57,699 nt of DNA, taken from Elusimicrobiota bacterium. GTDB taxonomy: Bacteria > Elusimicrobiota > Elusimicrobia > UBA1565 > UBA9628. The stretch is taken from positions 1 to 57,699 of the forward strand of contig JAHFCE010000020.1 of NCBI GenBank assembly GCA_023249675.1, given 5' to 3'. Each line of letters opens with the position of its first letter. Positions within the stretch are counted from its first letter, which is position 1. The translations under genes were made by a program, and so were the position numbers. Below, one piece after another: positions 8,828 to 36,916 of the stretch. The notes beneath the pieces were generated by a model. The model had not been told where the DNA came from and searched no databases. It worked only from the letters and a program-made list of their open reading frames with translations.

Positions 8828-9238
8828 CTAACGGCGCTTGCCGTGACTATTGAGCACGAACTCGATCTCGCCCCAGAGCTTCTCGATGGTGATCGGCTTG
8901 GGCAGGAACTGTTCGGCGCCGGCAAGAAGGCCTTCGATGCGGTCGCGCGGGTCGGCATACTGCGTGGAGGCGGAGACGAAGATGACCGGAGTGTCTTTAT
9001 GGTTCTCGAGGCGCTTGACCTTGCGGCACAGCTCGAAGCCGTGCATGTCGGGCAGCTGGACGTCCATGATGATGATCGAGGGCCGGCTCTGCTTGAGGGC
9101 TTTGATCGCCTCCTCGCCGGTGCGCGCGCCGGTCACCTCGATGCCCTTCAGCGACATGACGTCGATGAAGGTCTCGCGGAAGTGGTCGTCGTCCTCGACG
9201 ATGAACATCGGCGAAGCGATGAGGGTCTGCGGCATCAT
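8828..9238 (-). CDS. Single-domain response regulator (CheY-like receiver)
   Basis: 136 residues, receiver domain only with no DNA-binding output. The acidic pocket is E-D-D-D near residues 15-18, the phosphoacceptor is Asp59 in I-I-M-D-V-Q-L-P-D, the switch Ser is in F-V-S-A-S, and the conserved Lys is in L-P-K-P. The ATG overlaps the stop of the M50-S8 protease gene (ATGA), so the two are co-translated. No histidine kinase is in the window. It may relay a phosphorylation signal linked to the proteolytic system; this is inferred from the operon only. Confidence 0.9.
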   Translation of the reverse strand: MMPQTLIASPMFIVEDDDHFRETFIDVMSLKGIEVTGARTGEEAIKALKQSRPSIIIMDVQLPDMHGFELCRKVKRLENHKDTPVIFVSASTQYADPRDRIEGLLAGAEQFLPKPITIEKLWGEIEFVLNSHGKRR

Positions 9239-12168
9239 GGCGTCTTTCCAAACTTCGCCGCGAGCTTGTCGTAGGCGGCCTGAACGTTCAAGAAGCCTTC
9301 ACCTTCCTCATCGCGGCTGTTCTTGCCCGTCTTCTCGAGCGTGGACATGAGCGCGTTGACGACCGCGTCGAGCTTTTCGCCCTTCTCGGTCACGCCGAAC
9401 ATCATCGCCAAGAGCGCAATGGCGCCGGCCACGGCAGGAGTGGACATCGAGGTCCCTGAGATGGCCTTCACAGGTCCATTCACGCCGTCCACGCGGTCGG
9501 CGCCGAGCGCCTCGGGCCACGCGCCCTCGGTGTTGAGACCGACGGCCGTCAGATCGGGACGGTGCGGGTAGCCGGGAGTCTTCGCGGTGATGGGCGAGCC
9601 GGGGCCGCGCGAGGAGAAGTAGGCGATCTTCTTGTTACGGTCGGCGGCGGCCACGGACATGACGCGAATAGCGCCCGTCGCCGAATCTTGATAGGTCACG
9701 ATGGCCGGGGCGCCGATCGTATTCTTGCCCGAACCCGCGTTGCCGGCCGCGAAGACCATGATGTGGCCTTCCTGCGCCAGCTTCTTCACCAGTTGGGCAT
9801 CGGGACCATTCGGGTCGCCCTCATCGTCGCCCCACGAGTTCGAGATCACGAGGTTGCCATCGTTGCCGGCCTGAGTCAGCGCCCTGAGGATGTCGTCGAG
9901 CGTGGCACCGCCATCCACGAAAGCCTTGTAGTGCGTCAGATTGCGCAGCCACCGCGCCAGGGACTGAATCCACGAACTTACCCATGAGCCGTGGCCGTTG
10001 TCATCCACGTTCTCGCCGGAGGTCATATTGACCTTTTTAACGTACTTGAGCAAAGGGTGAGAAGCGTCGACGCCGCAATCGATCACGCCGAACTTGGGCT
10101 GCGGAGGCGCGGTCTTGAAGACCTTGGCCCACAGGCCGGACCAGAAGCCGAGAACAGGCTTGCCCCATCGCCTTTCGGCGATGCTGAGTACGGTGTCGGC
10201 CTTGATGATCTTCAGGTTCTCATCCATCGTGACGGCGCCGCGCGCCTCGGGATCCATCTGCTCGGGCGTGACGGGCACGGGGCGGATGATCTTGCGCTCG
10301 GCATTCGGGGAAACCTTGAAGCCGCGCCCGACCATCTGCCGGGTGAACTCGGCCGCGGAAGCGCCGTCCACGCGGATCGTGGCGGTGTTGATGCGCTCGT
10401 AGGTCGCGATAGGGGTTGCCTTGTAGGGCGCGAGGGCGGCCGCGTCGAGGCCGGCAGTCTCGAGCTGGGCCAGCATCGCCTGCTGCAGGCGCGTGTACTG
10501 CTCGACGCCGTCGGGCAGGTTCACGTCCACGTTCGAGATATGCGCGTCGTGCAAAACCGTCTTCTTCTCGCCGAACCCCACAATCAGGTTCACGGGGCTG
10601 TTGACGCCGCCCGAGGCCGCGCCGCCGTTGTCGGGCGCGGCCTTGCTCGCGCCGAGCTGGCCGACCGCGAGGCCAAGAGCCGCCACGGCCGGCAGGAAGG
10701 CGCCCGCCATCTGAACGCCGGTCACCGTCATCGCGCCGCCGATCAGGAGCTTGGCGACAAACATCGCCGCGCCCGCGACCGCGCCGCCGGCCATCATAAA
10801 GACCAGAACCAAGGGGAGAATGACGCCCATCGGACCCAGGCGCTCCATCAAGTTGTCCATCGCCGCACGGGCCTGATGGGGCAAGAAAGCCTTGAGTATG
10901 TGGCTGCCGTCAAACGGCGGGAGCGGGATCATGTTAAAGATCGCGAGCAGAACGTTCAGGAACACGAACGCCCCGAGCGTCGCAACGACGCCGGCGCCGA
11001 GTCCCGCGGCTACAGCGCCGGTGACGGCGAGCGCGCCCGCGACGGCCAGGCCCATATTGACGGCCGGGCCGGCCAAGGCGACGAGCGCTTTGTCCTTGAC
11101 CGGGTTCTTAAAGTAGCGTCCGCCCGGGTCCAGAGGGATAGGGCGAGCGCCGCCAAAGACGAAGCCTGCGGTCAGGAAGAAGAACGCCGGAAGCGCGATG
11201 GTCAAGAGCGGATCGATGTGCGAGCCCCAGGTCAGGGGATTGAGGCTGCCCCTGTCAGCATGCTTCACCTTTTTAGGGAGGCCGGTACTCAAACTCCATT
11301 GCCCGGCAATCAGACGACCAAAATCGATCGTCTCATAGGAGCTCAGACGAGGAGTCGGATCGCCGAGCTTGTCGGCCACGCGTGCGTGGCCGACTTCATG
11401 AAGAATGAGCGAAACGAGAATCATGGGGAACAGCGCGATCGAGCCGAAGGCCAAGCCCGCAGCCGTCGCCGCGGCCCCGCCAAGCAGACCCACGCCGAAC
11501 AGGCCGAAAAGGCCGTTGCCGCCGCGATCGCTCTGGTCGGGGTCGGAACGATCGTCGGGACCGCCCTCGCCGCCGATGCGGCGCGGATTGCCAATCTCAT
11601 CGATGTCGCCGTCTTTCCCCGCGCCGTCAACGGAGTCGTCCGAGTCGGGCATGGCCTTCTTGGACGCCGCCAGGAACGAGGCGTTCGCCGAAACGGACAT
11701 GTCGGCGCCGATCGCCGCGACGGCGCCGACCCTGAGGGCCTCGCCGTCGAAAGTCTTGCGCGCCTCGACGGCCTGCGTTTCAACGGGCTTCGATTCCGCG
11801 GACGGAACGGACCGACGGGCCTTCAACGTCTCGATCGCCGGGGTCTTCGCGGCGGCGGGCGCAGGTCGAAGGGCGGCCCGGGCGGCGTTTGCCGCAATGG
11901 GCGCAATGGCGGATACAGTCGGGACAATCGCAGGGGCGGACAGAGGGGCGGAGAGATTCGGGGCCGCAGGAGACAATGTTGGAATCCCGGAAACATCCGC
12001 CGCGCGGCCAAGGGTCGCTCCGGCCACGCCCGTGACGCCGGCCGCGGCGGAACCACTAGCGGCGGCTCCCGTCGTCTGCGCGGCGGCGTGATAGGCGCTC
12101 GAGCCCGGAGACAGAACGACAAGGGCAAGCGAGAGCGTGAGTGCGATTGCGGAACGAAAGCGCTTCAT
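9235..12168 (-). CDS. Exported membrane fusion: M50 site-2 protease plus S8 subtilase
   Basis: 977 residues. A signal peptide (1-31) is followed by an Ala/Pro-rich region to about 135, a K-T-F-D-G-E motif (F140), an acidic linker, then a site-2-protease domain. Zinc ligands are H257-E-V-G-H261, and N-x-x-P-x-P-P-F-D-G-S supplies Asp420; about six hydrophobic helices surround them. A prodomain-like segment (about 535-660) precedes a subtilase domain with Asp697 (V-I-D-C-G-V-D), His726 (N-G-H-G-S), an oxyanion N-S-W-G and Ser907 (G-T-S-M-S-T-P). All catalytic residues of both proteases are present. S8 and M50 are the families of site-1 and site-2 proteases of regulated intramembrane proteolysis. 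The mRNA has a leader with a GGAG site. Substrates unknown. Confidence 0.88.
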   Translation of the reverse strand: MKRFRSAIALTLSLALVVLSPGSSAYHAAAQTTGAAASGSAAAGVTGVAGATLGRAADVSGIPTLSPAAPNLSAPLSAPAIVPTVSAIAPIAANAARAALRPAPAAAKTPAIETLKARRSVPSAESKPVETQAVEARKTFDGEALRVGAVAAIGADMSVSANASFLAASKKAMPDSDDSVDGAGKDGDIDEIGNPRRIGGEGGPDDRSDPDQSDRGGNGLFGLFGVGLLGGAAATAAGLAFGSIALFPMILVSLILHEVGHARVADKLGDPTPRLSSYETIDFGRLIAGQWSLSTGLPKKVKHADRGSLNPLTWGSHIDPLLTIALPAFFFLTAGFVFGGARPIPLDPGGRYFKNPVKDKALVALAGPAVNMGLAVAGALAVTGAVAAGLGAGVVATLGAFVFLNVLLAIFNMIPLPPFDGSHILKAFLPHQARAAMDNLMERLGPMGVILPLVLVFMMAGGAVAGAAMFVAKLLIGGAMTVTGVQMAGAFLPAVAALGLAVGQLGASKAAPDNGGAASGGVNSPVNLIVGFGEKKTVLHDAHISNVDVNLPDGVEQYTRLQQAMLAQLETAGLDAAALAPYKATPIATYERINTATIRVDGASAAEFTRQMVGRGFKVSPNAERKIIRPVPVTPEQMDPEARGAVTMDENLKIIKADTVLSIAERRWGKPVLGFWSGLWAKVFKTAPPQPKFGVIDCGVDASHPLLKYVKKVNMTSGENVDDNGHGSWVSSWIQSLARWLRNLTHYKAFVDGGATLDDILRALTQAGNDGNLVISNSWGDDEGDPNGPDAQLVKKLAQEGHIMVFAAGNAGSGKNTIGAPAIVTYQDSATGAIRVMSVAAADRNKKIAYFSSRGPGSPITAKTPGYPHRPDLTAVGLNTEGAWPEALGADRVDGVNGPVKAISGTSMSTPAVAGAIALLAMMFGVTEKGEKLDAVVNALMSTLEKTGKNSRDEEGEGFLNVQAAYDKLAAKFGKTP

Positions 12169-12317: not shown

Positions 12318-15300
12318 CTAGCGATGGGGGGTCCTGTTGATCGGAAAGATCAGCGCGGGCGAGAGGAAATCGACCAGGGCGCAGAAAACCATCACGCCCC
12401 CCGCGATCCACAGCACCGTCATCGTCGGCAAGTCCGCCAGCCACCAGCTGTAAATCAACAGGCCGCCGATCGTGCAGATCATCTGGTAGAAGAACATCGC
12501 CGAGTAGATCTTGCCCTGGCTCTCGGGGTAGGAGCCCGCGACGACCTTGGTCGTCAGGCTCGTCCAGGCCACGCTCGCGGGCGCGCCGAAAATCGTCGAC
12601 AGAAGCATCAACGCCGCAGCCGCGTACAGGTTACCCGAGAAGAACAGCGCCGCATAGGCAAGCCACGACAGGCCGTGCACCCAAGAAGTCCACCGGCCCT
12701 GGCGCTGGAGCCGGTCCATACCGGTCGTCGCGTCGGCGTAGGCGTCCGCAAGCAGCTTGGCGCCCCGTAGAGAGGCCCACGCGCGCAAGTCGCTGGCAGC
12801 ACTCGTCGCCTCGAGCAAGGTGAGCGTCTCGGCTTCGGAGCGGCCGAGTGTCGCACCGACGGCCTTGACGGCCTCGGCGACCAGATCGACGCCGAACTGA
12901 CCGCCGTCGCGCGCCGCGCCGCCCTTCGTCCACTCCCCTTTATAACGGTCCAGCACCAAAGGCACGACGCCACGCAGAGCGGCGGAGGCCGCGTCGAGAG
13001 TCCCGGCGTCGAGCGCAGGCTCGCGCTCCGCAAGCTCGGAGCGAAACACGCGCGCCGAGGGCGCAAGCGCCATCTGCTCGGGGTCGCGCGCGAAGGCCAT
13101 GAGACCCGAGCCGAGGCCGGAACCGAGCGCAGACGCCGCCAGGAACAGCCCGAAGGAGCCAGCGCCCGCGTGCAGCACGTCCGTAAGGAAGCGAGACAGC
13201 GCCCCGAAGATCAGCACGTCACCCACCATGAACGAAACCGTCGTCGAGAGAAGGTACCGGCGCAGAAAGCGGTCGGAGAAGATCGTCTTGACGCCCGACA
13301 CGAACTCCTTGAGGACGCGGCGGCGAGCGACGGCCTTCACCGGAAAGCCGCCGAACTCGGCGGGCAAGACGGCCAGCGCGGGATCACCGTCTATCTCGAC
13401 GAGGAGGGTCTTGCGGCCTTTCACCTGACCGCCCGTCACGCCCGAGAAGCGCACGGGGCCGATGCCCTCGCGCTTGAGAACCTTGGTCAGCTCCCGGCGC
13501 GCCGCCAGTATCTCATTGCGGGGCAACTTCCGAAAGATCCCATAGACGACCGCGCACGCGAGCAGCATAACCCCGCACACCGCGTAGGACAAAGCGTTGC
13601 CGCTGAGCAGGCCGAAGTGCGCGCCAACCGCCGCGATGAAGGCACCGGCCAGCAGCAGCCCGACCACGCCGACGACGTTCATCACGATCATCGAAATCGC
13701 CTTGGCGCGGTTGTAGTAGCCGACCGCGCACGCGAGCAATAGGATCCCGTATACCTCGTAGGACAAAGCGTTGCCGCTGAGCAGGCCGAAGTGCGCGCTG
13801 ACTATCGCGATGAAGGTGCCGGCCAGCAGCGGCCCGACTACGCCGACGACGTTCATCACGATCATCGAAACCGCGTTGGCGCGGTTGTAGTGCGCGGCGT
13901 CATCGGCCAGGATGCGGTTGAAGGTGACCGACTCCGCGGTCGTGCCCGCCATCTGTAGGAAGCCCGCGACCGCGATTAGGCCCGCGAAGACGCCGAAGCC
14001 GAGGAATCCCTGGAAGAAGAGGACCGGGACCAGCAGCATCAGAAGCGAGCGGCCGACGTCCGTCCAGATGATAACCTTCTGCGTCGAGGTGCCGTCGACG
14101 ATCATGCCGGTGACGAGGGAAGCCCCGGCCTGCGCGCCCCCGTTGATCGCGCGGTTGTAGCCGACCTTGGCCGCATCTTCTTCCGTCGGAGCGACGAACT
14201 GGGGAAAGGCGGTGTAGTGGAAGTTGACGCCGAGCATCACGAAAGCCCGGTACGCGGTGAAGATCCAGAACTGCCGGTTGCGGCCTTCATCGGGGAGCAC
14301 GCGCAGGAAGCTGATCAGCTTCGCCCATGCGCCCTGAAGAAGACCGCCTCCGATATTCTCGGAGGCGGGCCCGGCGTGAGGAACGAAGGAGACCCGGAGG
14401 CCGCCCCCACCTCCACCCGGCTCAGGAGGCCGAGGTTTTATCGGGCGGGTTGTCTTCATGGCCTCGGACATGTCGTGGAGCTTTCGGATGCGCACGCCGG
14501 TGTTCGGGTGAGTAATAAACAGCTCGAAGATCAAGTCGTCGGCACGAGTCGCGCCGCCGGACGCCGACGTCTGTGGAAGAACGCCGGCATTCTCGAGCTG
14601 CTCCAGAGGGTTGACGATCATCATGTGCTGCATCGACGCCGCGCGCGGAATCGTCGCGCCGGGCAGGCGGAAGCCCGCCGCCGGCCGCCACGTCGTCAGC
14701 AGTCCCAGCGCGAGTGCGAGCGCCTCGGGGTCCTCGCTGAGAAGCGCGCCGTCCTCGTCCGCCATGCCCTCGTTATTGCGCGACGACGCCATCTGCAAGA
14801 TCTGAAGGGCGAGCGGAGCCCACAGCGCCGCGAACCACCGCAGCAAAGCGGGCAAAGACTTAAGGACGATGCCCGTCGAGATCGGGTCGAACGCCTCGGG
14901 CTTGACGCCCGCGCCCTCGGAGCGCGCCGCGGGCGCATCTGAGGGGACCGGTTTCGGCTGCCATCCAAACGCCTTCTTGACGAGAATCTTCGCATGGCCG
15001 ACGGCCCACATGACGCCATAGGAGGCAAACTGGATGCCGGCAGCGATGGCGCCGCCGATCGAGCCTAGCAGCATGTGGCGATCTTCCACGTGCGACCACT
15101 CATGGCCCAGCACGCCGCGCAACATGCGCACGCCGAGCGCCTTGAGCTCGGAACGGTCGGCCTTGAGCACGGCGGCCGCCACCTGAGAGGGCGTCGCGTC
15201 GGCGGGGATGCCAGTCACCGAACCGGCGATCGCGCTCCGAAAGACCTTGAATTCCTTGGTGCCCGCGTCGGACGAGGCGATCAAGCGCACCACGCCGTCG

Positions 15301-17276
15301 CGGACGATCTCGGGCTCAAGGGTCATCGCCTTGATGCCCTTGGTCACGCCGACCATCGCGTCAAACGGGCTGCGGCCGGTCGCGTAAGCGTTCGGGGCGT
15401 CCATCGGGTCGATGACGATCTCGGGCATCGGGTATTCTTTTTTGCCGGCCGCGCGGCGCTTGGCGTTGCGCCCGGCAAGATAGTCTTCCACAATCTTGAA
15501 CACCTCAGGGTCCTGCTCCTTCGTCGTCGGCTGGGCCTTCATCACGAGCTTGATGATCTTCTTCGCGAAGAAGAACGGGATGAACGCGAGCACGGAGGCG
15601 ACGGCAAGATTGGTCAGCAGGCTTGTGATGCCGAATACGGTGAAGGAGAGGAGGACGCCGGCCGCCGCCATCGTGCCGAGCATCAGGACGGTCTTAGCCG
15701 CGTAATGGAATACGGGCCACTTCGGCGGCCGGTCGGCGAGCTGGTCTGGATCCGCGACGGGCGCCGCCTTCGTCGACGGAGCGGCCGGGGCCTTGGGCAG
15801 GATCTTGGCCAGCAATGTCTCCGTCCAGACCGAGGCGCGCTCGCCCGCGAAGACGATGACGAGGAAGGTGAGCGGGCTCGCGAAGCCGGTGAACGCCGTG
15901 TAGGCAAGAAGGCCGAAGTAAAGCCGGTTGAAGGTCACGAGGCTCAGAAGCTTCTTCACCAGGCTGCCGATCGAGTTCACTGTGGTCGATGAAGCCGCGT
16001 TGCCGGAGCGCCCGCCGAGCACGGTCCATAAGAGGAAGGCGATATTCGTGTAGACGGCGGAGTAGCCCGTCAACAGCGCGAAGACCACCCCGATCATCAC
16101 CCACTGGAAGGATGGGAAACGAACCTTCTGCAGCGAGCCGGGCACGGAAAAGGGTGCGCCGGTCTCGGCCGAATTGATCAGGCGGCCGAGGAAGAACGCG
16201 ACCGTGGTCATCACCGGCAAGGCCATGAGGCCGATGATGGGCGCAAGCCCAATGAGGCCCGCGACGGACGCGGCCCCGACAAGGGCCGGGGTGAGGCCGA
16301 GTGCGCCCCAAACAAGGACCGTGTCGATGAGCGCTGAGCCCGCGAACCAGCGTCCGCCCGCCACGGCCAGCAAGGGCGTCGCCGCCGTCAACACGCCGGC
16401 GGTCGTGAGCACCAGACCAAGGCTGGGTACGGCGATCACGACAGCGCCCAGGAACGCGCCCAAAGAAACATCGAGGATGGTCTTGACCTTGTTCAGGCGC
16501 GGAGAGTCGCGCTTGGCGAGACGGTAGCGCGCATACAGCGCGAGCGGAAAGAGCAGGAGACCCGAGCTGACGGCCCAGACGGCCGCGATGGGCACCACGC
16601 CGAACACAGCCGGTAGGAGCGCCACGGCCGCGGCCTGCAGGCCGATCGTCACACCCGCGCCGAGCGCTATGGCAGAGACAGACTTTAGAATACCGCCGAG
16701 CCCCGAGCGGCGGAAGCCGTTGCCGTCCGGCGCGTTCGGCGACGGGACCGCGGCGCGAAAGCCCGCGCGCTTGACGCCGGCCGAGGTCAGTCCGGCGGAC
16801 GGGAGGCCGGCTGAGGGCAAGCCTTCAACGATCGGCTTGCGCGGACCCGCCTCCTCAACGCCAAGCAGGTAATCCATCATGGACGCGGCGGCGGAACGGG
16901 AACCGGAGACCGAACCCTTCGCGATCGCTCCAGCGGCCTCGATGACCTCGACGTGGACCGCGGCCAGGCTCTTCGCGTCGGCCCGGACCGGGCTCAGCCC
17001 GGGCTTGGCGGCAGACGCTTCCAGCGCGGCGGCAGAAACCGGGCTGTTGGCCGGCGCGGACGGCGCCCCGCTGAGAGCCGGGGCCGCCAGGCTCATCGCG
17101 GGCATCGACAGCTGAGGAATCGCGGAAGGAGCAATCGTCCCGGCGGCGCCGGCGGCGGAACCCGAAACGCCCGCGGCGGCTCCGCTCATCGCGGAGGAGA
17201 CTTGGGACCAGGCCGGCAACGGCGCTGAGACGAGGATGAGAGACAGGGAGACGGCCGCCGCGATGAATCGTTTCAT
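12318..17276 (-). CDS. Giant membrane fusion: M48 metallopeptidase plus MFS transporter
   Basis: 1652 residues. Signal peptide (1-25), Ala/Ser/Pro-rich region to about 110, then about ten hydrophobic helices (190-600). An M48-type zinc protease follows: H725-E-W-S-H729, with the third ligand Glu836 in N-E-G-M-A-D-E-D. From about 980 to the end is an MFS transporter, with a soluble insertion of about 130 residues in its second half. Residues about 1128-1243 are two tandem copies of a 58-residue helix pair. The start is ATG at 17276, with TAGGAT ending 6 nt before it. HtpX-like M48 proteases degrade damaged membrane proteins; a covalent MFS partner is unusual. Transported substrate unknown. Confidence 0.85.
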   Translation of the reverse strand: MKRFIAAAVSLSLILVSAPLPAWSQVSSAMSGAAAGVSGSAAGAAGTIAPSAIPQLSMPAMSLAAPALSGAPSAPANSPVSAAALEASAAKPGLSPVRADAKSLAAVHVEVIEAAGAIAKGSVSGSRSAAASMMDYLLGVEEAGPRKPIVEGLPSAGLPSAGLTSAGVKRAGFRAAVPSPNAPDGNGFRRSGLGGILKSVSAIALGAGVTIGLQAAAVALLPAVFGVVPIAAVWAVSSGLLLFPLALYARYRLAKRDSPRLNKVKTILDVSLGAFLGAVVIAVPSLGLVLTTAGVLTAATPLLAVAGGRWFAGSALIDTVLVWGALGLTPALVGAASVAGLIGLAPIIGLMALPVMTTVAFFLGRLINSAETGAPFSVPGSLQKVRFPSFQWVMIGVVFALLTGYSAVYTNIAFLLWTVLGGRSGNAASSTTVNSIGSLVKKLLSLVTFNRLYFGLLAYTAFTGFASPLTFLVIVFAGERASVWTETLLAKILPKAPAAPSTKAAPVADPDQLADRPPKWPVFHYAAKTVLMLGTMAAAGVLLSFTVFGITSLLTNLAVASVLAFIPFFFAKKIIKLVMKAQPTTKEQDPEVFKIVEDYLAGRNAKRRAAGKKEYPMPEIVIDPMDAPNAYATGRSPFDAMVGVTKGIKAMTLEPEIVRDGVVRLIASSDAGTKEFKVFRSAIAGSVTGIPADATPSQVAAAVLKADRSELKALGVRMLRGVLGHEWSHVEDRHMLLGSIGGAIAAGIQFASYGVMWAVGHAKILVKKAFGWQPKPVPSDAPAARSEGAGVKPEAFDPISTGIVLKSLPALLRWFAALWAPLALQILQMASSRNNEGMADEDGALLSEDPEALALALGLLTTWRPAAGFRLPGATIPRAASMQHMMIVNPLEQLENAGVLPQTSASGGATRADDLIFELFITHPNTGVRIRKLHDMSEAMKTTRPIKPRPPEPGGGGGGLRVSFVPHAGPASENIGGGLLQGAWAKLISFLRVLPDEGRNRQFWIFTAYRAFVMLGVNFHYTAFPQFVAPTEEDAAKVGYNRAINGGAQAGASLVTGMIVDGTSTQKVIIWTDVGRSLLMLLVPVLFFQGFLGFGVFAGLIAVAGFLQMAGTTAESVTFNRILADDAAHYNRANAVSMIVMNVVGVVGPLLAGTFIAIVSAHFGLLSGNALSYEVYGILLLACAVGYYNRAKAISMIVMNVVGVVGLLLAGAFIAAVGAHFGLLSGNALSYAVCGVMLLACAVVYGIFRKLPRNEILAARRELTKVLKREGIGPVRFSGVTGGQVKGRKTLLVEIDGDPALAVLPAEFGGFPVKAVARRRVLKEFVSGVKTIFSDRFLRRYLLSTTVSFMVGDVLIFGALSRFLTDVLHAGAGSFGLFLAASALGSGLGSGLMAFARDPEQMALAPSARVFRSELAEREPALDAGTLDAASAALRGVVPLVLDRYKGEWTKGGAARDGGQFGVDLVAEAVKAVGATLGRSEAETLTLLEATSAASDLRAWASLRGAKLLADAYADATTGMDRLQRQGRWTSWVHGLSWLAYAALFFSGNLYAAAALMLLSTIFGAPASVAWTSLTTKVVAGSYPESQGKIYSAMFFYQMICTIGGLLIYSWWLADLPTMTVLWIAGGVMVFCALVDFLSPALIFPINRTPHR
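13547..13894 (-). repeat. In-frame 174-bp tandem duplication inside the MFS domain
   Basis: Two adjacent copies, 13547-13720 and 13721-13894, have a period of exactly 174 bases (58 codons). They encode a helix pair centred on M-I-V-M-N-V-V-G-V-V-G and H-F-G-L-L-S-G-N-A-L-S-Y. About four-fifths of the residues are identical. The copies are in frame, so the MFS half should gain two transmembrane helices. Confidence 0.92.
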
Positions 17277-18117: not shown

Positions 18118-21100
18118 TTACTTCTTGGGGTTTTTATTGACGCTGGAGTCGGGGAGTCCGGGCAGGAGCTTCGGCGTGAAGAAGAAGAACGCGCCCGCGG
18201 CGAGGAAGATCAAGCCGATCGGTCCGAGCACTCCCGGAAAGGCCGGCGTGAATAGGCCCACGATGAGGCTCGTCAGGCCGTAGCCGAAGGAAACCGCCGC
18301 GTTGAAGGTGGAGCCGTTGACGCCGATCGCGGCGCCGAGCTTGGAGTTCTTTGCGTGAGTCTGGAAGTAGCTGGAGAACACCACCAAGCTCGGGCCGGCG
18401 AACAGGCCGAGGAGCAGGACCCCGGCGAACAGCGCGGGCATCGAGCCCCAGAACGCGAAGGGCAGGAACACGCCCGCGAGGCCGACGCCGAGAAACTTGA
18501 TCCAGCCGCGCGCGCTCAACTTCGAGCTGCCGTAGAGCAAAGCCGCGCCGATCGCAACGGCGGCGGCCGCGGCGGCGAAGCTGCCGGGAAACAAGCGCAC
18601 GCCGGCCCAAACCGCCGCGAGACCCAGGACGACCCCTGAAACGAGACGCTCGAAGGAAAGGGCCTTGCCGATAAAAGGAATTCTGATGTCGGGCATCTTC
18701 ACCGCGCCCGTCGGAGCGGACAGCTGGCCCGCGTTGGCGATGAGCTGGCCGAAGAAGTAGGCCCCGAGCAGCTGGCCTAAGATCAGGCCCTTGCCCGCGG
18801 CGCCGCCCAAGGCCGAGGCCATCAGCGGCAAGGCCAGCGACTGCATTGGAAACACGAGACCCGCCAGCAGCGCCGAGAGGAGCATCGCCCAGCGCAGGTT
18901 CTTCTGCGCCCAGATCGCCCTAAAACCGCCGCTGCGCGCGATCCAGAACATAAGGGCGCCGGAGATCGGAAGCGCGGAGTGCCAGCTGAAGTACGCTCCG
19001 ATGGAGGCCGCAAATAAGGCTGCTTCCTTCCAGTACTTGGCGAAGAAAGCCCTCACGGCCTCGCCCCGAGCGCGCGCCGCCGCGGCGAAGTTCGCGGCGA
19101 CCTTCGCGGAGGAGGAAGCGGGCTTGATGTTCGGGATGGTCTTCCAGATGATCGGGATGACGAGCGCGGCGTGCACGGCGGCGGACAGGTAGAACGGCAG
19201 CAGCAGGCTGAAGTGGTCGACGTACTGTCCGACGCCGATGACGAGGCCGAGAAGAACCTGCAGCGTCAGGTAGTTGATCGCGGCAAGGCCGTTGACCATC
19301 GGCACGTTCTTGGCCCCGGCGAGGCGGCGGATGTACGTGCCTTCCGTGATCATCAAAGACGAGAGCAGCCAGCCGTTGGCGATGGAGGCGAGCAAAAGCG
19401 TCCAGAAGTTCAGCACGCCAAAGAGCGCGAACGCGGGAAGCGCCAAGGCCATCAGCCCGCGCATCGCGGCCATCAGCGCGAGGCCGTTGCGCGCCGACAT
19501 GCGGTCGGCGATGAGGCCGTTGAGCGGTCCGGTCGCGATCGCGGCCAAGGGTCCCAAGGCCATCAGCGCGCCGTAGCTGGCGACGCCGACCGCGGGGATC
19601 GTGATGAGCGGATAGGCGATCGAGGTCAGGATGAAGGCGACAATCGAGATCGTGCGCTGGGCGAACAGGCCGCCGATCGCCTTCTTGTCCATCTCTTCGG
19701 CCGCCGGCGCGATTTTCCCAAGGGCGGCGAGAATCTCGGCGGAAGCCGTAGCACCCTTCGCGGGCCAGACGAAGACGTTCGCAATGCGCGGGTCGGCGAG
19801 GCCGCCGACCGCGAGGGTCAGCGAACCGGCCCCGGCGGCCTTGGTCATGTCGGCGTCGACCATCCGGGTGCCGAAGAACGAGTCGCCCACCAACAGCATC
19901 GGACCCGCGAAGCCGCGCGCCTCGCGCAGGGCCTTGATGCCGACGGTCTTGTCAAGGAGCGAAATCCTAAGATAGGACGGGTTCTTCGGATCCACCGCCA
20001 AGCTGCCGCTGACGACGACCTGCGCGCCGGCCGCATCAAGCTCCGCCTGCATGAAGCGCACGGCCTCCTGAACGGTCTCGGCCGCCAGGCCGGGCGGCAG
20101 GAAACGCACCCACTTGACCTCGGAGAAAATCTCTTCCGCGCCGTCGTACTCGTAACGGCCGAACTTGTCGGCGGTCCGAGCCGAAGCCGCCGCGATCGCA
20201 GCGCGCTGAGCGTCGGTGAACTTGAGAACCGCGTCGAAGACGGTGACGGGCGCGCCCGCTGCGTCGAAGGCGAGGAGGCGCGCGCCGCTGTTCGCGCCGA
20301 CCGTGAGCTTGGCCTTCTGCTCAGGCGTCATCGGGACGATCGAGTCGAGGATCGTGACGTCCCGGCCACTCGTCTTAACATCGGATCTGTCGGTCAAGAT
20401 CGCGGTCCTGACTCCCGCGTCGTTCGAAGCCTGGAGGCCCGCGGCGACCGGGGCGGAGATCGGCTCGCGGAATTTCGCGAGCGTGTCATCGTAGTCGAAC
20501 ACAGCGGAGGCGGGCTTCCTGCTCACGAGGGAGGCGAGAATCTCGTCCTTGTGGGCCGCAGACACAGGGCGCAGGCTCTTGACGACGCCTTGCTCGGCGA
20601 GCGCGATCAGCGCCGCGCGGTGCACTTCATAGTCGGCGGCGCCGCCATCGGGGTTGGCGGCGGAAACGCGCTCGAGGCTTTCCTTCGCACCCTCGTATTT
20701 CGCGAGCTGGGCGACCGCGGCCTGGCGTTCGGCGAGCGGGGCCTTTGCGTCGAGCGCCATCGCCTCGAGCGTGATCGGGGTCGGCAGCGTGGCCTTGCCT
20801 TCGAGCGCCGAGGCGGCAGGAGTGTTCGGCGTCAGCGCCAGGGACGCCGCAACAGGGACGTCGAGGCGGCCGGCGCGTTCGCGTTCGCCTGTGAAGAAAG
20901 GTTTGAGAATGCCCGACGCGTCGGAGCCATCGGCTGCGGCGGCCGCGAGCTTCTCGCCAACAAACGCCAGCTGGGCCTGAGCATTGAAAGGAGCCTTGGC
21001 CGCGTCGACGGGCCGAATCGCCCCCTGGACAGACGCGGAAGCGAGGGGGCCGGCAGCGAGAACGGAAACGGGCAGGATGGGAATCGGACTTGCCGACGCC

Positions 21101-21309
21101 GGCAGGGTCGGGATAAGGCCGGTCTCGGGAGAAAGAAGGGTGAACGCCGTCCCAGACAGTTCAATGCGCGGCACGCCGCCCGCGGCGCCGAGGACTCCGC
21201 CCGGAACCGCTCCGCCGACGATGATCTGCGCGACGGCCTGGTGCGGAACGGCGGCCGCCGCGATCAAGAAGGAGAGCAGGACGACGAAGGCGCGGCGGGT
21301 GGTCTTCAT
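18118..21309 (-). CDS. Exported HAD phosphatase domain fused to MFS transporter
   Basis: 1063 residues from the ATG at 21309. Signal peptide (about 1-28), Ala/Pro-rich region to about 120 with an F-T-G-E motif, a helical linker, then a HAD hydrolase. Asp272-x-Asp274 in F-D-Y-D-D-T is the nucleophile pair, I-L-T-D-R-S is motif II, and V-G-D-S with a following D-A-D-M supplies the metal-binding motif. The catalytic set is intact. From about residue 545 to the end are about twelve helices of an MFS transporter. The chain could dephosphorylate a substrate and move it, or use the HAD domain to gate transport. With a cleaved signal peptide the HAD domain would be periplasmic. Substrate unknown. Confidence 0.82.
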   Translation of the reverse strand: MKTTRRAFVVLLSFLIAAAAVPHQAVAQIIVGGAVPGGVLGAAGGVPRIELSGTAFTLLSPETGLIPTLPASASPIPILPVSVLAAGPLASASVQGAIRPVDAAKAPFNAQAQLAFVGEKLAAAAADGSDASGILKPFFTGERERAGRLDVPVAASLALTPNTPAASALEGKATLPTPITLEAMALDAKAPLAERQAAVAQLAKYEGAKESLERVSAANPDGGAADYEVHRAALIALAEQGVVKSLRPVSAAHKDEILASLVSRKPASAVFDYDDTLAKFREPISAPVAAGLQASNDAGVRTAILTDRSDVKTSGRDVTILDSIVPMTPEQKAKLTVGANSGARLLAFDAAGAPVTVFDAVLKFTDAQRAAIAAASARTADKFGRYEYDGAEEIFSEVKWVRFLPPGLAAETVQEAVRFMQAELDAAGAQVVVSGSLAVDPKNPSYLRISLLDKTVGIKALREARGFAGPMLLVGDSFFGTRMVDADMTKAAGAGSLTLAVGGLADPRIANVFVWPAKGATASAEILAALGKIAPAAEEMDKKAIGGLFAQRTISIVAFILTSIAYPLITIPAVGVASYGALMALGPLAAIATGPLNGLIADRMSARNGLALMAAMRGLMALALPAFALFGVLNFWTLLLASIANGWLLSSLMITEGTYIRRLAGAKNVPMVNGLAAINYLTLQVLLGLVIGVGQYVDHFSLLLPFYLSAAVHAALVIPIIWKTIPNIKPASSSAKVAANFAAAARARGEAVRAFFAKYWKEAALFAASIGAYFSWHSALPISGALMFWIARSGGFRAIWAQKNLRWAMLLSALLAGLVFPMQSLALPLMASALGGAAGKGLILGQLLGAYFFGQLIANAGQLSAPTGAVKMPDIRIPFIGKALSFERLVSGVVLGLAAVWAGVRLFPGSFAAAAAAVAIGAALLYGSSKLSARGWIKFLGVGLAGVFLPFAFWGSMPALFAGVLLLGLFAGPSLVVFSSYFQTHAKNSKLGAAIGVNGSTFNAAVSFGYGLTSLIVGLFTPAFPGVLGPIGLIFLAAGAFFFFTPKLLPGLPDSSVNKNPKK

Positions 21310-21315
21310 GGGCAC

Positions 21316-30473: not shown

Positions 30474-33400
30474 TCAGGGGGACGGCTTCTGCGCCGCACG
30501 CAGGGCGCGGCGTAGCAGGCCCGGACGAGGCGCCGCAGGCGGGGCCGTAAGCTTTCGGGCTTCATCGGCCAGGGCCTTGGCTTCGCGGACAAGCGCCTCA
30601 GGGTCATTGAGACGCGTGCGCAGGGCCTCCAAGGCGCGGTCCGCCGTGTCGAACAAGCCCGCGCCGACCTCGTGCTCGCGGTAAGCCGGGAGTGCCGTCA
30701 CCGAGCGCTTGACCAAGGCGGTTAAATAGGGAAACCAGCCGTCGGGCAAAGAGCGGCCCGCCGCCGTCATGCCTTCAGACAACACCCGCGCGAGCTTGGC
30801 CAACTTGGCCGCGCTGCGCTCGGCCGCCGCCGCCGTGCCGAGAATTTTGGTCGGCAAGACCGCTCCCGCGGCGGCCTCCGCCACGACGACCACCGCCTGG
30901 TCGATCAGCTCGCCAGGCTTCAGATCGTCCACAAGATCGGTCCAACTGATGCGCGGAGCCTCAGGCGTGCCGCGCCAGGAGTAGAACTGCAGGCCTTCGG
31001 TGCTCGCGGCCGCGACGACCGCCGCAAGGCCAAAATCGCCGGGCGCTGCAATGGAGGCGGGTTTGGGACCGGAGTTGCCGGCGCCGACCACGACGCCGAT
31101 GCCGGAAGCGACAAGCCGGTCGATCAGCCTCGAGAGCGGCGTGCGGCGCATCGTGGGCGCGCCCAACGTCAGCGCGATCACGACCGGACCCTTGCCCTTC
31201 GCGGCCGCGGCGACGCGCTCGAGCGCGGCCATCACGCGCACCTCGGACACTCCGGCGGCGGCGCGCACGCGCACAAGCGAAAGATCGGCATCTGCGGAAA
31301 GCTCGTCCGCCTTTTCGCCGTCGCCGAGGTCGATCGTCAAACCGCCCGCCTCGGCCGGGACGTTCGAAAGCGGATAATAAGGAAGCGAATGGCGAACGGT
31401 CCAGCCCCGATGCTCCAGAGCGATCGTCAGCGCGTAGAGCTTGTGCTCGGGAACCGACAGCCATAGCCCGCGCGACAGCGGCAAGGACGCCCTCGTCGTC
31501 GTCTCAAAGCGAGTCAAAGTCGCGGCGTCGATCTGAGGATCTTCGGCGCCGTACGGCGCCGAAACGAACAGGTCCACGGGGCCCATCGCCTCGTCCACGC
31601 CGGACACGCCCGAACCCGCGGGGTCCATCGGCGCGGTCGGCACGTCAAGCGGAATGCCCGCGGCCCGAGCGAGCAGCTGGACGAGCTCGCTCAGCGCGCC
31701 GGGCTTGCTGATGGCGTCGCGGTTCTTGACGACGAAATCCGTGATGATGGGCTTGAGCGGCTCGGCGCGCAGGCGCAGAACGAAGGCCTTGCTCCTGACC
31801 GCGACCGGGAAAACCTTCGCGACCGTGCGCGTCAGGGCGAGGTTCTCCGGACCGGCCGCGTCGAGCAGGTCCATAATGACGCGGTCGCTGATCGCCTCCG
31901 GCACGGCGTCGGCCAGGTTCGACAAAGCCGCCGAAGCGAGGTGACGGATGTTCCCGCGCTCAGCCCGGTCGCGCACGCGGGTCGAAAGGCCCTCGGTCTC
32001 AAGTATCGTCGCATAGGAGCCGATCTGGCCGAGCAGCCACGTCGATGAGAAGCGCACGCTCTTGTCCGCGTTGCCGAGCTCCTTGACGACGCGGGCGACC
32101 GCCGAGCGGTCGCCGTGGCGAGCGAGCGCGTAGGCGGCGTAAACGCCGACGTCCCATAAGTCGTTGGCCGCCGCCTTGCGCAGCAAGGCGTCCATCGCGT
32201 GCGTCGGGATCTCGGCGAGCGCTAGGAACGCCATCTGGCGCACGCGGGCATCGGGGTCATTGAGGCCGGCCTCGGCGAGCGCTGAGGCCGAGGCGGGCGA
32301 CCTGAAGTTCATCAATACAAAGGCGGCGCGCATGCGCACGAGCCACACTGGGTCCTTCAGCGCCTCAAGCAGCGCCGGGAGCTCCACGTCACGCGCCGCA
32401 TTGAAGCGCTTCTGGATTTCAGCCTGCACGATGTTGCCGGCCGCAGAGCGGTCCGCCGGCTCCTCAGAGGATTCATCGGGAGAGTCGTCCTCCTCACGCG
32501 CCCGCGCGTCGCTCTTCGCCAACCCGGTCTCCCGGTAGACGCGGTCCTCGGCGTCTTGAACGGCCTTGAGCCGCTCAAGCCAGGCCCAGCCGTCCGGGGA
32601 GAGCCCGCGTCCGGCACATTCGTAGACCAAAGATATGGCCGCCCAGGCGTTGACAAGGCCGGCACCCTGAAAGGTCAGCGGAATAGCCGTATCGGTCGCC
32701 GTCCGCATCAGAATCGCCTTCACGGCAAAGGGCAGGTTGTCCCGCAAGAAGGACGCCGGCTCACCGGCCTTCGCGGGAATCAAAGCGCCGATGGCTCGCA
32801 GCGCGAGCTTGACGAGAAGCGCAATGGCGGCCACGGCTGGGGCGGACATCGACGTGCCGGACTTGCCGGTATGCTTGCCGTCCGCGAGGTCGGAGACCGA
32901 ACGCGGCGCGTCCTTCGATTTCGCCGAGTACACGCCCTCCTTGTAGACGTTGCTCGATCCGGGCGAGGTCGTCACGTCGCCGCCGATGCCGATAATGTCG
33001 GGCTTGAAGCGGTCGCGCTTGATCGGATAGCGGCCGTCGCTGTCGAAGCCCGGCGACTCGAAGAAGGAAGCCTCCGGCACGCCGTCGTCCTTGCTCTTGG
33101 CGAAGGAGCCGACGGCGATCACGTCCGCCCCTGCGGCGGGCTGGCTCATCGTGCGGTCGAAAGGGCCGGCATTGCCGGCGCTCGCGAGGATGATCGGATA
33201 CTCGCCGACCGCATTTTTTTGGTGGGTCAGCTGGGAGAAGAACTCCGCCAAATTATCAGCTGAGGAGCCCCGGCTGCCGAGGCTCAGGGTGATCACGTCG
33301 ACGCCCCTCTTCTGGGTCGCGAGGGCCGCGGCCACGCGGCCGAGGTTCAGGCCGACTCGATTCAAACCCTTCTGCAGGATGCCGACAGTCAAGGCCGCAA

Positions 33401-35855
33401 TCCCGGAGAGGATATTGGGCGTGACCTCTATGCTTTTCTGCATGGCGACGACGGCCGCGGCCATGATGTCGCCATCCGTGGCGCCGGGCCTGTCACGCGA
33501 GAAGACCTTGGCCATAGTGCCGTGCCCGCCCTTGGCCATGCCGAAGAAACCCTCATTGCCTGATATGGAAATGCCCGCGACGTGCGTACCGTGGCTGATC
33601 CAGTCCTCCGGGCCCTCATCGACCATGTCGATGACGTCGAGGCGTCCGCCGAAGTCGGCATGCGTCTCGTCGGCGCTGGTGTCGATCCAGAAGATCTCGC
33701 CGCCAGCGCCGGTGATCCCGAGCTGCCAGACGGGCTTGACTCCCTGCAGTCCGGCGGAATCCATCAGGTGGGTCTCGAAATTCGCCTGCGAGGCGATGAC
33801 CTCGGCGGCGGAACTCACGTACTTGCTGATCTCGCTCTTATTGCGGCGCGGCACCGTGATGTAGATTTCCTGGCGGCCTACGTCCGCGCCTAACACATGG
33901 CGCACGATGACTTCCTTCTGGTCAAAAAGATCGAGCTGTTGGGCGAAACCAGCGTCTTCGAGAGACTTGCGCGCGGTCGCGCGCCCCTCTTCGGTGAACG
34001 AAGCGTTCGCAATCGAGGTCGCGATGCGCCCGCCTTGGATGGGACGAAGCCATAGGCCGACGCGGGGCTCGACCTTGCGCAAAGTCAGCAGGTGGCCGCC
34101 GTCCTCGAGATCAACGCGGTTCACGCGGAACTGGCCGCCATCGGCGGACTCCCAGTAACGCAGCAGCTTCTCCCAGGACACCACCCCAACGTCATCCGGA
34201 CCGAAGGACAAGAAGGCGAAGCCGTGGTCGCGCAGGCCGCCGTAGAGGCCCTCGATCAGATCCGAAACGCCCACGCCCTTGAGGCGCTGGGAAGCGATTT
34301 GCTGCCAGAACTTGCGCACCTCGCCCTGGAACGCCTGCAGCGCGCGAGGCGAGCCGTTCTCGCGCAGGCGCTGGGCGCGCCCGACAAGATCCGCCCAGGC
34401 CGAGGACTCGGAGGTCCCCTCAAACGCGGCGTCGCGCGCCACGAGGCGCGTCGCGAGCAAGTGGAGGCTGTCGAGCTGCTTGAGCGCCGTCTGCAGGCGC
34501 AGATGCTCCTTGGACTTCGGGTCCGGCAAGACGCGGGCCGCGCCGCCAAGCACGATCGCGCGGAATCGACCGCGCAGCTCGGATAAGGCCGGCGCTGGCG
34601 CGCTTTCCTTCAACAACGTCACGCGCGCCGTGCCATCGGAAAGCCCATTGTAGAGCTTCGGGTCCTCCAGCTCCTTCGTCTCGGGGTTGAGCACGAGCAC
34701 ATCGTAAGGGCGCTGGAGGCGCAAGGACATCTGGGTCGCGGTCAGAGCGCGCTGAAGACCAGACACCTTGATCTTCTTGAGTGCGCGGGGGCCCTTGAAC
34801 TCGCTCGCACGGGCACGGACTTCGGAGACGACCATCGACAGAAGACCTCGGAACGCGCCGCGCGGAGGACCGCGCGGCGCGCTCGCCTCCATGTGGGTCA
34901 GCTCATGCAACAGGACCTGGCGCAGCAGCCACGGTGTTGCCGCGAGCTCGGGACGAACCCAGATCAGGCCGCGCGAGGCGAAGGCAAACGTGAAATCCTT
35001 GTACCGGTTGTCCGGGAGGTGGGCCCTGCATAAGGCCGCCGCGTTTCCATTGAGGCGCCCCTCGAGCACTTCGGCTTTCAGGACAGAGTCGAGATCAGTG
35101 GCCGTGAAGCCGCGGCCGCGCCACATCGCCGCGACGAAGACGACCGAGTCGACGACCGCGTTGAGGACGAAGGCGCCGGTGAGGACCATCGCCGAGATCG
35201 CGGCGACGGCGAGAACCGTCCCTCCGGTTGAAGGCGCCGCCGAGTGGGCGCCGAACGCATGCGCGCCCCAGCGCGCGAACTCCGCGCCGCCCCACGCCAG
35301 GCCCGAGAAGCCCGCAAGCCACAGCGGGAAGAAAGCTCCGCGCTTCTCGCCCTCCGGCTTGGTCGGCACCGCGGGTTCCGCGCTGCTCTCGCGCTCAACA
35401 CGCGACACGGCCGACAGCGGCCGCAAGGCCGACGCCACCCCGGCCTCGACGGAAACCGGGTCGACCAAGTCGCCGCTTCCAACCGCAAGGGTTTCGCCGG
35501 TGATGCGCCGGGAGAAGTCCTCGGCGGCGGCGCGGCCGAAGGTCTCGCCGGGGGCCGAGGGCTTGACGGCCGCAAGCGCGGACGGGACGGCGATAGGCTT
35601 GGCGGCGGACGGCGCCGCGATCGACGGAGACAACGAGATCAACGGCGCGGGCAACGACAAGACGGATGGAGAACTCAAACCGGCGCCTGAACCCGCAGGG
35701 ACCACGCCCAACAGAGGAACGACGGAAACGGCGGAGACCTTGCCTGCGATCTGCTGCGCGAACGCGGAGGAAACAGCGGGACCCCAGGAAGACAGCAGAA
35801 GGATCGCGCACAGCGCGGCGGATAGGGAACGGCGGAATGACGACAATGTATTCAT
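30474..35855 (-). CDS. Giant exported fusion: membrane metalloprotease, S8 subtilase, HEAT repeats
   Basis: 1793 residues from the ATG at 35855; a GTG one codon earlier is possible. Signal peptide (about 1-34), Ala/Pro-rich region to about 105, I-T-G-E motif, two or three hydrophobic helices (175-245). A gluzincin-like site follows, H317-E-L-T-H321. After about 400 residues of unknown fold comes an S8 subtilase: Asp725 (W-I-D-T), His755 (S-H-G-T-H-V-A-G), Asn895 (S-A-G-N-A-G) and Ser1002 (S-G-T-S-M-S-A-P). Residues about 1155-1300 are HEAT-like repeats. Near 1560-1640 a second subtilase-like piece keeps G-A-G-N-S-G-P but lacks its own triad. The start overlaps the upstream beta-protein gene by 1 nt. 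Confidence 0.82.
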   Translation of the reverse strand: MNTLSSFRRSLSAALCAILLLSSWGPAVSSAFAQQIAGKVSAVSVVPLLGVVPAGSGAGLSSPSVLSLPAPLISLSPSIAAPSAAKPIAVPSALAAVKPSAPGETFGRAAAEDFSRRITGETLAVGSGDLVDPVSVEAGVASALRPLSAVSRVERESSAEPAVPTKPEGEKRGAFFPLWLAGFSGLAWGGAEFARWGAHAFGAHSAAPSTGGTVLAVAAISAMVLTGAFVLNAVVDSVVFVAAMWRGRGFTATDLDSVLKAEVLEGRLNGNAAALCRAHLPDNRYKDFTFAFASRGLIWVRPELAATPWLLRQVLLHELTHMEASAPRGPPRGAFRGLLSMVVSEVRARASEFKGPRALKKIKVSGLQRALTATQMSLRLQRPYDVLVLNPETKELEDPKLYNGLSDGTARVTLLKESAPAPALSELRGRFRAIVLGGAARVLPDPKSKEHLRLQTALKQLDSLHLLATRLVARDAAFEGTSESSAWADLVGRAQRLRENGSPRALQAFQGEVRKFWQQIASQRLKGVGVSDLIEGLYGGLRDHGFAFLSFGPDDVGVVSWEKLLRYWESADGGQFRVNRVDLEDGGHLLTLRKVEPRVGLWLRPIQGGRIATSIANASFTEEGRATARKSLEDAGFAQQLDLFDQKEVIVRHVLGADVGRQEIYITVPRRNKSEISKYVSSAAEVIASQANFETHLMDSAGLQGVKPVWQLGITGAGGEIFWIDTSADETHADFGGRLDVIDMVDEGPEDWISHGTHVAGISISGNEGFFGMAKGGHGTMAKVFSRDRPGATDGDIMAAAVVAMQKSIEVTPNILSGIAALTVGILQKGLNRVGLNLGRVAAALATQKRGVDVITLSLGSRGSSADNLAEFFSQLTHQKNAVGEYPIILASAGNAGPFDRTMSQPAAGADVIAVGSFAKSKDDGVPEASFFESPGFDSDGRYPIKRDRFKPDIIGIGGDVTTSPGSSNVYKEGVYSAKSKDAPRSVSDLADGKHTGKSGTSMSAPAVAAIALLVKLALRAIGALIPAKAGEPASFLRDNLPFAVKAILMRTATDTAIPLTFQGAGLVNAWAAISLVYECAGRGLSPDGWAWLERLKAVQDAEDRVYRETGLAKSDARAREEDDSPDESSEEPADRSAAGNIVQAEIQKRFNAARDVELPALLEALKDPVWLVRMRAAFVLMNFRSPASASALAEAGLNDPDARVRQMAFLALAEIPTHAMDALLRKAAANDLWDVGVYAAYALARHGDRSAVARVVKELGNADKSVRFSSTWLLGQIGSYATILETEGLSTRVRDRAERGNIRHLASAALSNLADAVPEAISDRVIMDLLDAAGPENLALTRTVAKVFPVAVRSKAFVLRLRAEPLKPIITDFVVKNRDAISKPGALSELVQLLARAAGIPLDVPTAPMDPAGSGVSGVDEAMGPVDLFVSAPYGAEDPQIDAATLTRFETTTRASLPLSRGLWLSVPEHKLYALTIALEHRGWTVRHSLPYYPLSNVPAEAGGLTIDLGDGEKADELSADADLSLVRVRAAAGVSEVRVMAALERVAAAAKGKGPVVIALTLGAPTMRRTPLSRLIDRLVASGIGVVVGAGNSGPKPASIAAPGDFGLAAVVAAASTEGLQFYSWRGTPEAPRISWTDLVDDLKPGELIDQAVVVVAEAAAGAVLPTKILGTAAAAERSAAKLAKLARVLSEGMTAAGRSLPDGWFPYLTALVKRSVTALPAYREHEVGAGLFDTADRALEALRTRLNDPEALVREAKALADEARKLTAPPAAPRPGLLRRALRAAQKPSP

Positions 35856-36916
35856 CACTGAAGAAAAATTATGTCCGAAGACTGCCCCGACTTCTTCGAC
35901 TCAGGAGCCGGGCGCTTCGCATCATCGAGGGCGCCGTGGACGCGCTTTTTATAGATGATCTTAAGGCCGCGGCCGATCTCATAAGGCAGGGCCACCCCGA
36001 TCTGGGCGATCCAGCTGCGGTACTGGAGCCGCCCGAGGGCCTTGACCTCCGCGTTGAAGAACGCGCTCCAGCCGGGACGAGCATACTGCACGCCCGCGAT
36101 CCAGCGCCCCTGGCTCTGCTCGGGGTGGTCGCTGTTTTCTCCGGAGACGGGCGAGATGTTGAAGTCCTGCGACGTCAAATCCAAACGCGAACGCACCGAG
36201 CCGGTGGCGTAGTTGTAGCCGAAACCAAGAAAAGGGGTCCAGGCGGCGTAGCTCTGGTGGGCCACGGCGGTCAGGCCGAAGCTGTTGAGGTTCCAATCGA
36301 TTTCACCATTGAGGTCGCTGTCGGACCTGTAGTTGGAATCGACGTTGACGTTGAACTTTCCCTTCATGCGCGTGCGCCCGCGCACATGATTGTAGTGCGC
36401 GCCGAGTGCGACCTTCGGAAGCTCCTCATCCCAGAGATCGAAGTGCTGGCGCAGGCCGCAGCCGTAAGAGTTCGTCTGAACTTGCGCGGTCATGGTCGGA
36501 GAGATTTTATAGCCCGGGGGCGTGGTCGCGTCGGCAAAGCGGAAGTAAGCGTCCCCCCGCCATGGCAGGCCCATGCGCAGATGCAGAGCCAGGTTCGGGA
36601 AAAGAACCTGGTTTGGGAAAATATTGGAGCCGCCTTGCGCATTGAGCGCCGGGACCGTCAAAGTCGGGAATTCTTGCTTATTGAACGGAATGCGGCCGAT
36701 GCCGAGCGACAGGTCCGGCTGCAGCGCCCAACCCTTCACTTCGCGCGGCGGATCGAACGTCGAACCGGCGTTGAACGCCAGGCCATTGGCCATTTCATGG
36801 CTCAGCCATTGCGTCATGCTCTGGAAGTCTCCCGAAAGGCTGGGATTGGCCGCCCGAACGGCCTCCGCCGAGAACAGAAAAAGCGCAGCCGCAGCGGCGA
36901 CTGAGCCGAGCTTCAA
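35855..36916 (-). CDS. Exported outer-membrane beta-barrel-like protein
   Basis: 353 residues from a TTG at 36916 that overlaps the small upstream gene by 4 nt (TTGA). Signal peptide 1-22. The body alternates short amphipathic strands rich in Gly, Asn, Tyr and Phe (for example G-F-G-Y-N-Y-A-T-G-S-V, W-I-A-G-V-Q-Y-A), as in outer-membrane barrels, though the last residues (F-L-Q) do not end in the usual barrel-terminal Phe. It is co-translated with the giant subtilase downstream, so it may be a surface partner or substrate. Family not recognised. Confidence 0.6.
   Translation of the reverse strand: MKLGSVAAAAALFLFSAEAVRAANPSLSGDFQSMTQWLSHEMANGLAFNAGSTFDPPREVKGWALQPDLSLGIGRIPFNKQEFPTLTVPALNAQGGSNIFPNQVLFPNLALHLRMGLPWRGDAYFRFADATTPPGYKISPTMTAQVQTNSYGCGLRQHFDLWDEELPKVALGAHYNHVRGRTRMKGKFNVNVDSNYRSDSDLNGEIDWNLNSFGLTAVAHQSYAAWTPFLGFGYNYATGSVRSRLDLTSQDFNISPVSGENSDHPEQSQGRWIAGVQYARPGWSAFFNAEVKALGRLQYRSWIAQIGVALPYEIGRGLKIIYKKRVHGALDDAKRPAPESKKSGQSSDIIFLQ

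Follow-up and report, generated by a model that had tools for sequence, protein, structure and literature searches.

A conserved fusion of an M50 intramembrane protease and an S8 pro-subtilase in one order of the Elusimicrobiota

Organization of the fusion gene

The window analysed here is a 57,699-nucleotide stretch of an Elusimicrobiota bacterium (GCA_023249675.1, contig JAHFCE010000020.1, positions 1 to 57,699), whose 2.6 Mb genome is assembled in 54 contigs and is 98.6% complete. On its minus strand, positions 9235..12168 form a single uninterrupted reading frame of 977 residues, from ATG to stop, in which both Peptidase_M50 (PF02163, E 5.3e-11) and Peptidase_S8 (PF00082, E 9.7e-30) score above the curated Pfam cut-offs. 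The M50 residues are H257-E-V-G-H261, with E258 as the glutamate, and D420 within an F-D-G motif; those of the S8 domain are D697, H726 and S907, with N810 as the oxyanion asparagine. Both Pfam domains are present in 16 of 16 aligned fusion members, and H257/E258/H261, D420, D697, H726, N810 and S907 are invariant in the alignment of these 16 species. In 23 of the 29 loci examined in detail, all nine of H257, E258, H261, D420, G421, D697, H726, N810 and S907 lie in a single frame. The original prediction that two intact proteases share one chain, with the catalytic residues as named, is thus borne out.

One might suspect an artefact of annotation or assembly, or a gene in decay, and one genome (G183) does have a frame break inside the M50 part of the gene, while another (G198) retains an N-terminal stub alone. 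Set against these are 23 independent genomes of three families with all nine residues in one frame; among them is G204, whose locus sits in a single-contig 3.8 Mb assembly and so cannot be explained by an assembly join. The recurrence of complete active sites in 23 single frames rules out a frameshift or assembly artefact, and the reading as a whole is extremely improbable; what stands of the concern raised with the prediction is the broken frame in the one genome.

The protein begins with a signal-peptide-like N-terminus (residues 1-31, MKRFRSAIALTLSLALVVLSPGSSAYHAAAQ; 12076..12168, minus), read from the sequence and presumably cleaved, in which the charge and the hydrophobic core are kept across the family, consistent with the proposal that the chain is exported. 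Between this and the M50 domain lie about 190 residues comprising a probably disordered Ala/Pro-rich region (residues 32-175; 11644..12075, minus; 28% mean pairwise identity, pLDDT <50) and an acidic linker (residues 176-219; 11512..11643, minus; 43% identity, mean net charge -6.8) with the motif GNPRR..GGPDD.SDPD.SDRGGN. We note that some relatives, among them those at loci L006, L008, L018, L022 and L027, carry one to several duplications of the motif core GNPRR..GGPDD..DP.

The M50 domain and membrane topology

The M50 intramembrane metalloprotease occupies residues 229-502 (10663..11484, minus). An AlphaFold model of the whole chain, of low overall confidence (pLDDT 62), places membrane helices at residues 229-267, 356-388, 392-412 and 447-486, and also shows a half helix spanning residues 320-334. 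HEVGH (257-261), with its two histidines and glutamate invariant, lies near the end of the first helix, and the NxxPxxDG motif, in which N412, P415, D420 and G421 are invariant and which includes FDG at 419-421, lies at or after helix 392-412. No PDZ domain is matched by Pfam in the window protein or in the 16 aligned members, and the RseP model gives the fusion 19 bits against a cut-off of 147.

The side of the membrane on which the S8 domain resides is suggested by relatives at the same locus that lack the M50 domain and are 55-66% identical to the fusion over the propeptide and S8. With the exception of one borderline window in G228, the stretch from the signal to S8 in these relatives lacks any hydrophobic segment, and their S8 domain must therefore be outside; the M50 insert adds four predicted helices, an even number, and S8 would therefore remain outside. 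The predicted topology, on which the original prediction had invited a check, fits as well: the catalytic site of M50 would lie close to the cytosolic face and the pro-subtilase at the outer face. The number of helices is somewhat uncertain, however, because residues 447-505 make up a long hydrophobic stretch with room for two crossings, in which case S8 would be inside.

The propeptide and the subtilase

The S8 catalytic domain (residues 661-977; 9238..10188, minus) is the best conserved part of the protein, with a mean identity of 62% among 16 species, and has the Asp-His-Ser triad in D/H/S order together with the oxyanion Asn. Directly before it is a beta-alpha-beta-beta-alpha-beta domain (residues ~524-632; 10273..10599, minus), seen in the AlphaFold models both of the whole chain and of residues 515-977 modelled separately, the latter with a pLDDT of 84 and a pTM of 0.88. 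Foldseek ranks pro-subtilisins first for both models, the top matches being unautoprocessed pro-subtilisin E (3whi, TM 0.61/0.78) and pro-Tk-subtilisin. None of the 16 members has a Pfam I9 sequence match at E up to 1, and we therefore refer to the domain as I9-like only. The stretch that follows it is modelled with low confidence and is variable in sequence, as expected for a processing loop.

I9 propeptides help the enzyme to fold, inhibit it and are cut off by it, so that such subtilases normally free themselves. The position of a pro-subtilisin-type propeptide between the two enzymes thus predicts self-cleavage and splitting of the fusion, and the mature enzymes are probably two polypeptides made 1:1.

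Distribution and loss of either half

Among the matches listed for 341 genomes from the phylum, the fused protein occurs only in three families (f1, f2 and f3) of the order to which the window belongs; the matches listed from the rest of the phylum are mostly M50-only frames of ~210-270 aa. Among the matches listed from a scan of 85,000 species, none outside the Elusimicrobia has both domains, and the named relatives are Elusimicrobia MAGs such as GWA2_66_18. Similarly, in 119 genomes of the Acidobacteriota, the phylum to which a Pyrinomonadaceae locus belongs, none of the frames with M50 relatives has an S8 match, and nearly all are 211-512 aa long. As judged from these sequence searches, the fusion looks lineage-specific. 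The idea that the fusion substitutes for a stand-alone M50 gene does not hold in general, since several fusion genomes contain further, separate M50 frames 211-262 aa in length. In the genome of the window itself, an ordinary M50 gene of 375 aa exists apart from the fusion.

A more varied picture is seen at the fusion locus in some relatives. Five genomes (G212, G213, G228, G230 and G233) carry the propeptide and S8 at the same locus without M50, the S8 frame of G228 being interrupted in the assembly, and two (G227 and G214) carry the prefix and an M50 domain with intact motifs without S8. In G198 (L117 3796-4443) a 215-aa stub of signal, Ala/Pro region and acidic linker ends at the boundary between linker and M50, followed by a stop and then the receiver gene described below. 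The M50-less forms fall into two groups in the S8 tree, with branching relative to the fused forms that lacks support; fused and M50-less forms require two changes in this tree, a count that carries no direction of change. The survival of M50 and S8 each alone is as expected of separable enzymes, and M50 catalysis is, by the sequence evidence, under selection, since its residues are invariant in 23 genomes and its motifs are intact in the two genomes with M50 alone.

Neighbouring genes

Immediately downstream is a gene for a single-domain response-regulator receiver (8828..9238, minus; PF00072, E 6.9e-25), whose usual residues, the phospho-acceptor Asp among them, are present as read from an alignment; its start overlaps the stop codon of the fusion gene (ATGA). 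Of the 29 loci, 26 have a receiver within 150 bp downstream of the gene, in several cases overlapping it in the ATGA manner, and one locus (L016) has two copies, one of them directly downstream. The three exceptions are G181 and G183 of family f2, with none near the gene, and a locus cut by a contig edge. Of the 53 genomes of the order, however, 49 have the receiver, which adjoins trxA-polA where the fusion is absent; this weakens the case for a dedicated partnership. Because the receiver belongs to this older trxA-polA neighbourhood, its link to the fusion is suggestive only.

The composite order derived from relatives is M48-MFS fusion, M50-S8 fusion, receiver, trxA, polA, rhomboid, coaE and rho, in which the rhomboid alone is confirmed by Pfam and the other names come from reading the sequences. 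The order receiver, trxA, polA, rhomboid, coaE, rho is conserved across the order of bacteria (L037, L040-L043, L047 and L050-L053). The upstream neighbour in the window (12318..17276, minus; 1652 aa) joins a signal-like N-terminus to M48 (HtpX-type) and MFS-like parts, and is shared with the genus of the window and several relatives; in the window copy, 58 residues within the MFS part are repeated through an in-frame tandem duplication of 174 bp (13543-13891, 88% matches). The adjoining M48 and rhomboid genes suggest a setting of envelope proteolysis, although they may reflect inherited gene order only.

Among various other unusual proteins, we note that a second, different fusion of metalloprotease-like and subtilase parts is encoded in the window at 30474-35858 (minus): a 1794-aa protein with a signal, HELTH near membrane segments, S8, HEAT repeats and an apparent second, degenerate S8-like stretch. 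A signal-like start and a long Ala/Pro-rich stretch also precede the membrane part of inner-membrane MFS or ABC exporters (window 18118-21315, minus; L122 2627-5548; L125 6630-9959), an exported prefix that is unusual for polytopic transporters. Frames of 1,800-3,365 aa with an M50 match are a recurrent feature of many genomes in the order, and a giant protein of at least 2709 aa (G000 contig C54 8002-16128, minus; equal to L062 3-8129) combines a signal-like N-terminus, M50, repeated small domains and a C-terminal ClpB-type double AAA+ ATPase. Such an M50-Clp fusion may be more surprising than the M50-S8 fusion.

A model for the fused proteases

A plausible scenario, to which we give about an even chance, is that the gene encodes a cell-envelope double protease made as one precursor, with a pro-subtilase that cleaves itself and a shared role in clearing the envelope. 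On insertion of the chain, the active site of M50 would come to lie close to the cytosolic face and the pro-subtilase on the outer side, where the propeptide would fold the S8 domain and block it until S8 cuts at the propeptide junction, at about residues 628-660. M50 with the propeptide would then stay in the membrane and the mature subtilase would be free or non-covalently held. The subtilase could trim the outer ends of membrane proteins or misfolded envelope proteins and M50 remove the membrane stubs, with the fusion serving mainly to secure equal amounts and a shared location of both enzymes. Simple separation of the enzymes leaves the retention of the fusion in 23 species unexplained.

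The main competing reading is regulated intramembrane proteolysis from one chain, in which S8 makes the site-1 cut and the linked M50 the site-2 cut in the same substrate, perhaps feeding the receiver. The predicted membrane sides match those of site-1 and site-2 cleavage, the catalytic residues of both domains are all conserved, the attached S8 could act as gatekeeper given that no PDZ filter is detected in M50, and 26 of the 29 loci have the receiver directly downstream. However, the intervening propeptide predicts that the enzymes part, the receiver is order-wide without the fusion and then lies with trxA-polA, and the receiver is found beside S8 alone in five genomes, beside M50 alone in two and with neither in one; we regard this reading as rather unlikely. 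An extended form, a single-gene machine in which the subtilase is both site-1 protease and a gatekeeper in place of PDZ, propeptide processing is the switch and the receiver acts in the same pathway, is distinctly unlikely. The earlier suggestion that both cuts would be made from one polypeptide does not fare well, for the propeptide predicts separation and either enzyme occurs alone at the locus; for the same reasons obligate one-chain proteolysis of the SREBP kind is not supported by the sequences and models, and co-localised site-1 and site-2 action is possible.

Alternatively, M50 may serve chiefly to anchor a tethered subtilase zymogen in the membrane and to help it mature, while cutting only to a minor extent or only the propeptide or signal piece left over from the fusion itself. 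S8 is the better conserved domain (62% identity) and persists without M50 in five genomes, as this would have it, but M50 catalytic residues that are invariant in 23 genomes, and intact motifs where M50 stands alone (G227 and G214), speak against a largely passive role, and we consider it unlikely. The natural and conserved fusion provides a ready-made system for asking whether a physical link between the two enzyme types can work, by what route substrates move from one to the other and whether an attached protease can replace PDZ gating, in an uncultured bacterial order that rebuilds envelope proteolysis through gene fusion.

Comparison with known proteases

Searches of the literature, mostly non-subscription and with few subscription papers covered, found neither M50-S8 fusions nor Elusimicrobiota M50 peptidases, an absence that is weak evidence; it agrees with the original statement that no described bacterial enzyme of this arrangement is known. 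Each half comes from a known family and the joined architecture is apparently undescribed.

The best-matching relatives of the M50 domain are small stand-alone site-2 proteases of ~215-250 aa, which we take to be of the SpoIVFB/COG1994 type. They have the same HExxH and DG motifs, are 34-46% identical within the phylum and match down to E 7e-45 in another phylum, but are single-domain proteins, whereas the fusion adds an exported prefix and linker before M50 and a pro-subtilase after it. The nearest solved relative by sequence is the MJ0392 site-2 protease (PDB 3b4r, E 2.3e-11), a chain of 224 residues that aligns over the later core region only and has no S8 part. RseP and RasP resemble the fusion in the catalytic motifs of M50 and in having both termini, as expected, on the outside, and differ in having PDZ domains, none being detected in the fusion.

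Pro-subtilisin E, Tk-subtilisin and Tk-SP have propeptide and S8 in the same order and fold as the fusion, although pro-subtilisins with an I9-type propeptide have no membrane protease attached and are 16-21% identical to it. Human MBTPS1 shares the S8 fold (query TM about 0.51-0.55) but is not the closest S8 relative, Tk-SP being better by sequence and pro-subtilisins by fold. As archaeal and bacterial subtilisins outscore MBTPS1, the S8 part shows no specific likeness to the human site-1 protease.

Regulated intramembrane proteolysis involves two cuts by separate enzymes. The SREBP pathway also pairs S8 with M50, but there, unlike in the fusion, site-1 and site-2 are separate proteins. The bacterial site-1 proteases DegS, DegP, SipS/T and Prc likewise cut before the site-2 protease and are distinct and separate from it; unlike the S8 domain of the fusion, they belong to other families and are separate polypeptides (PMC7593790).
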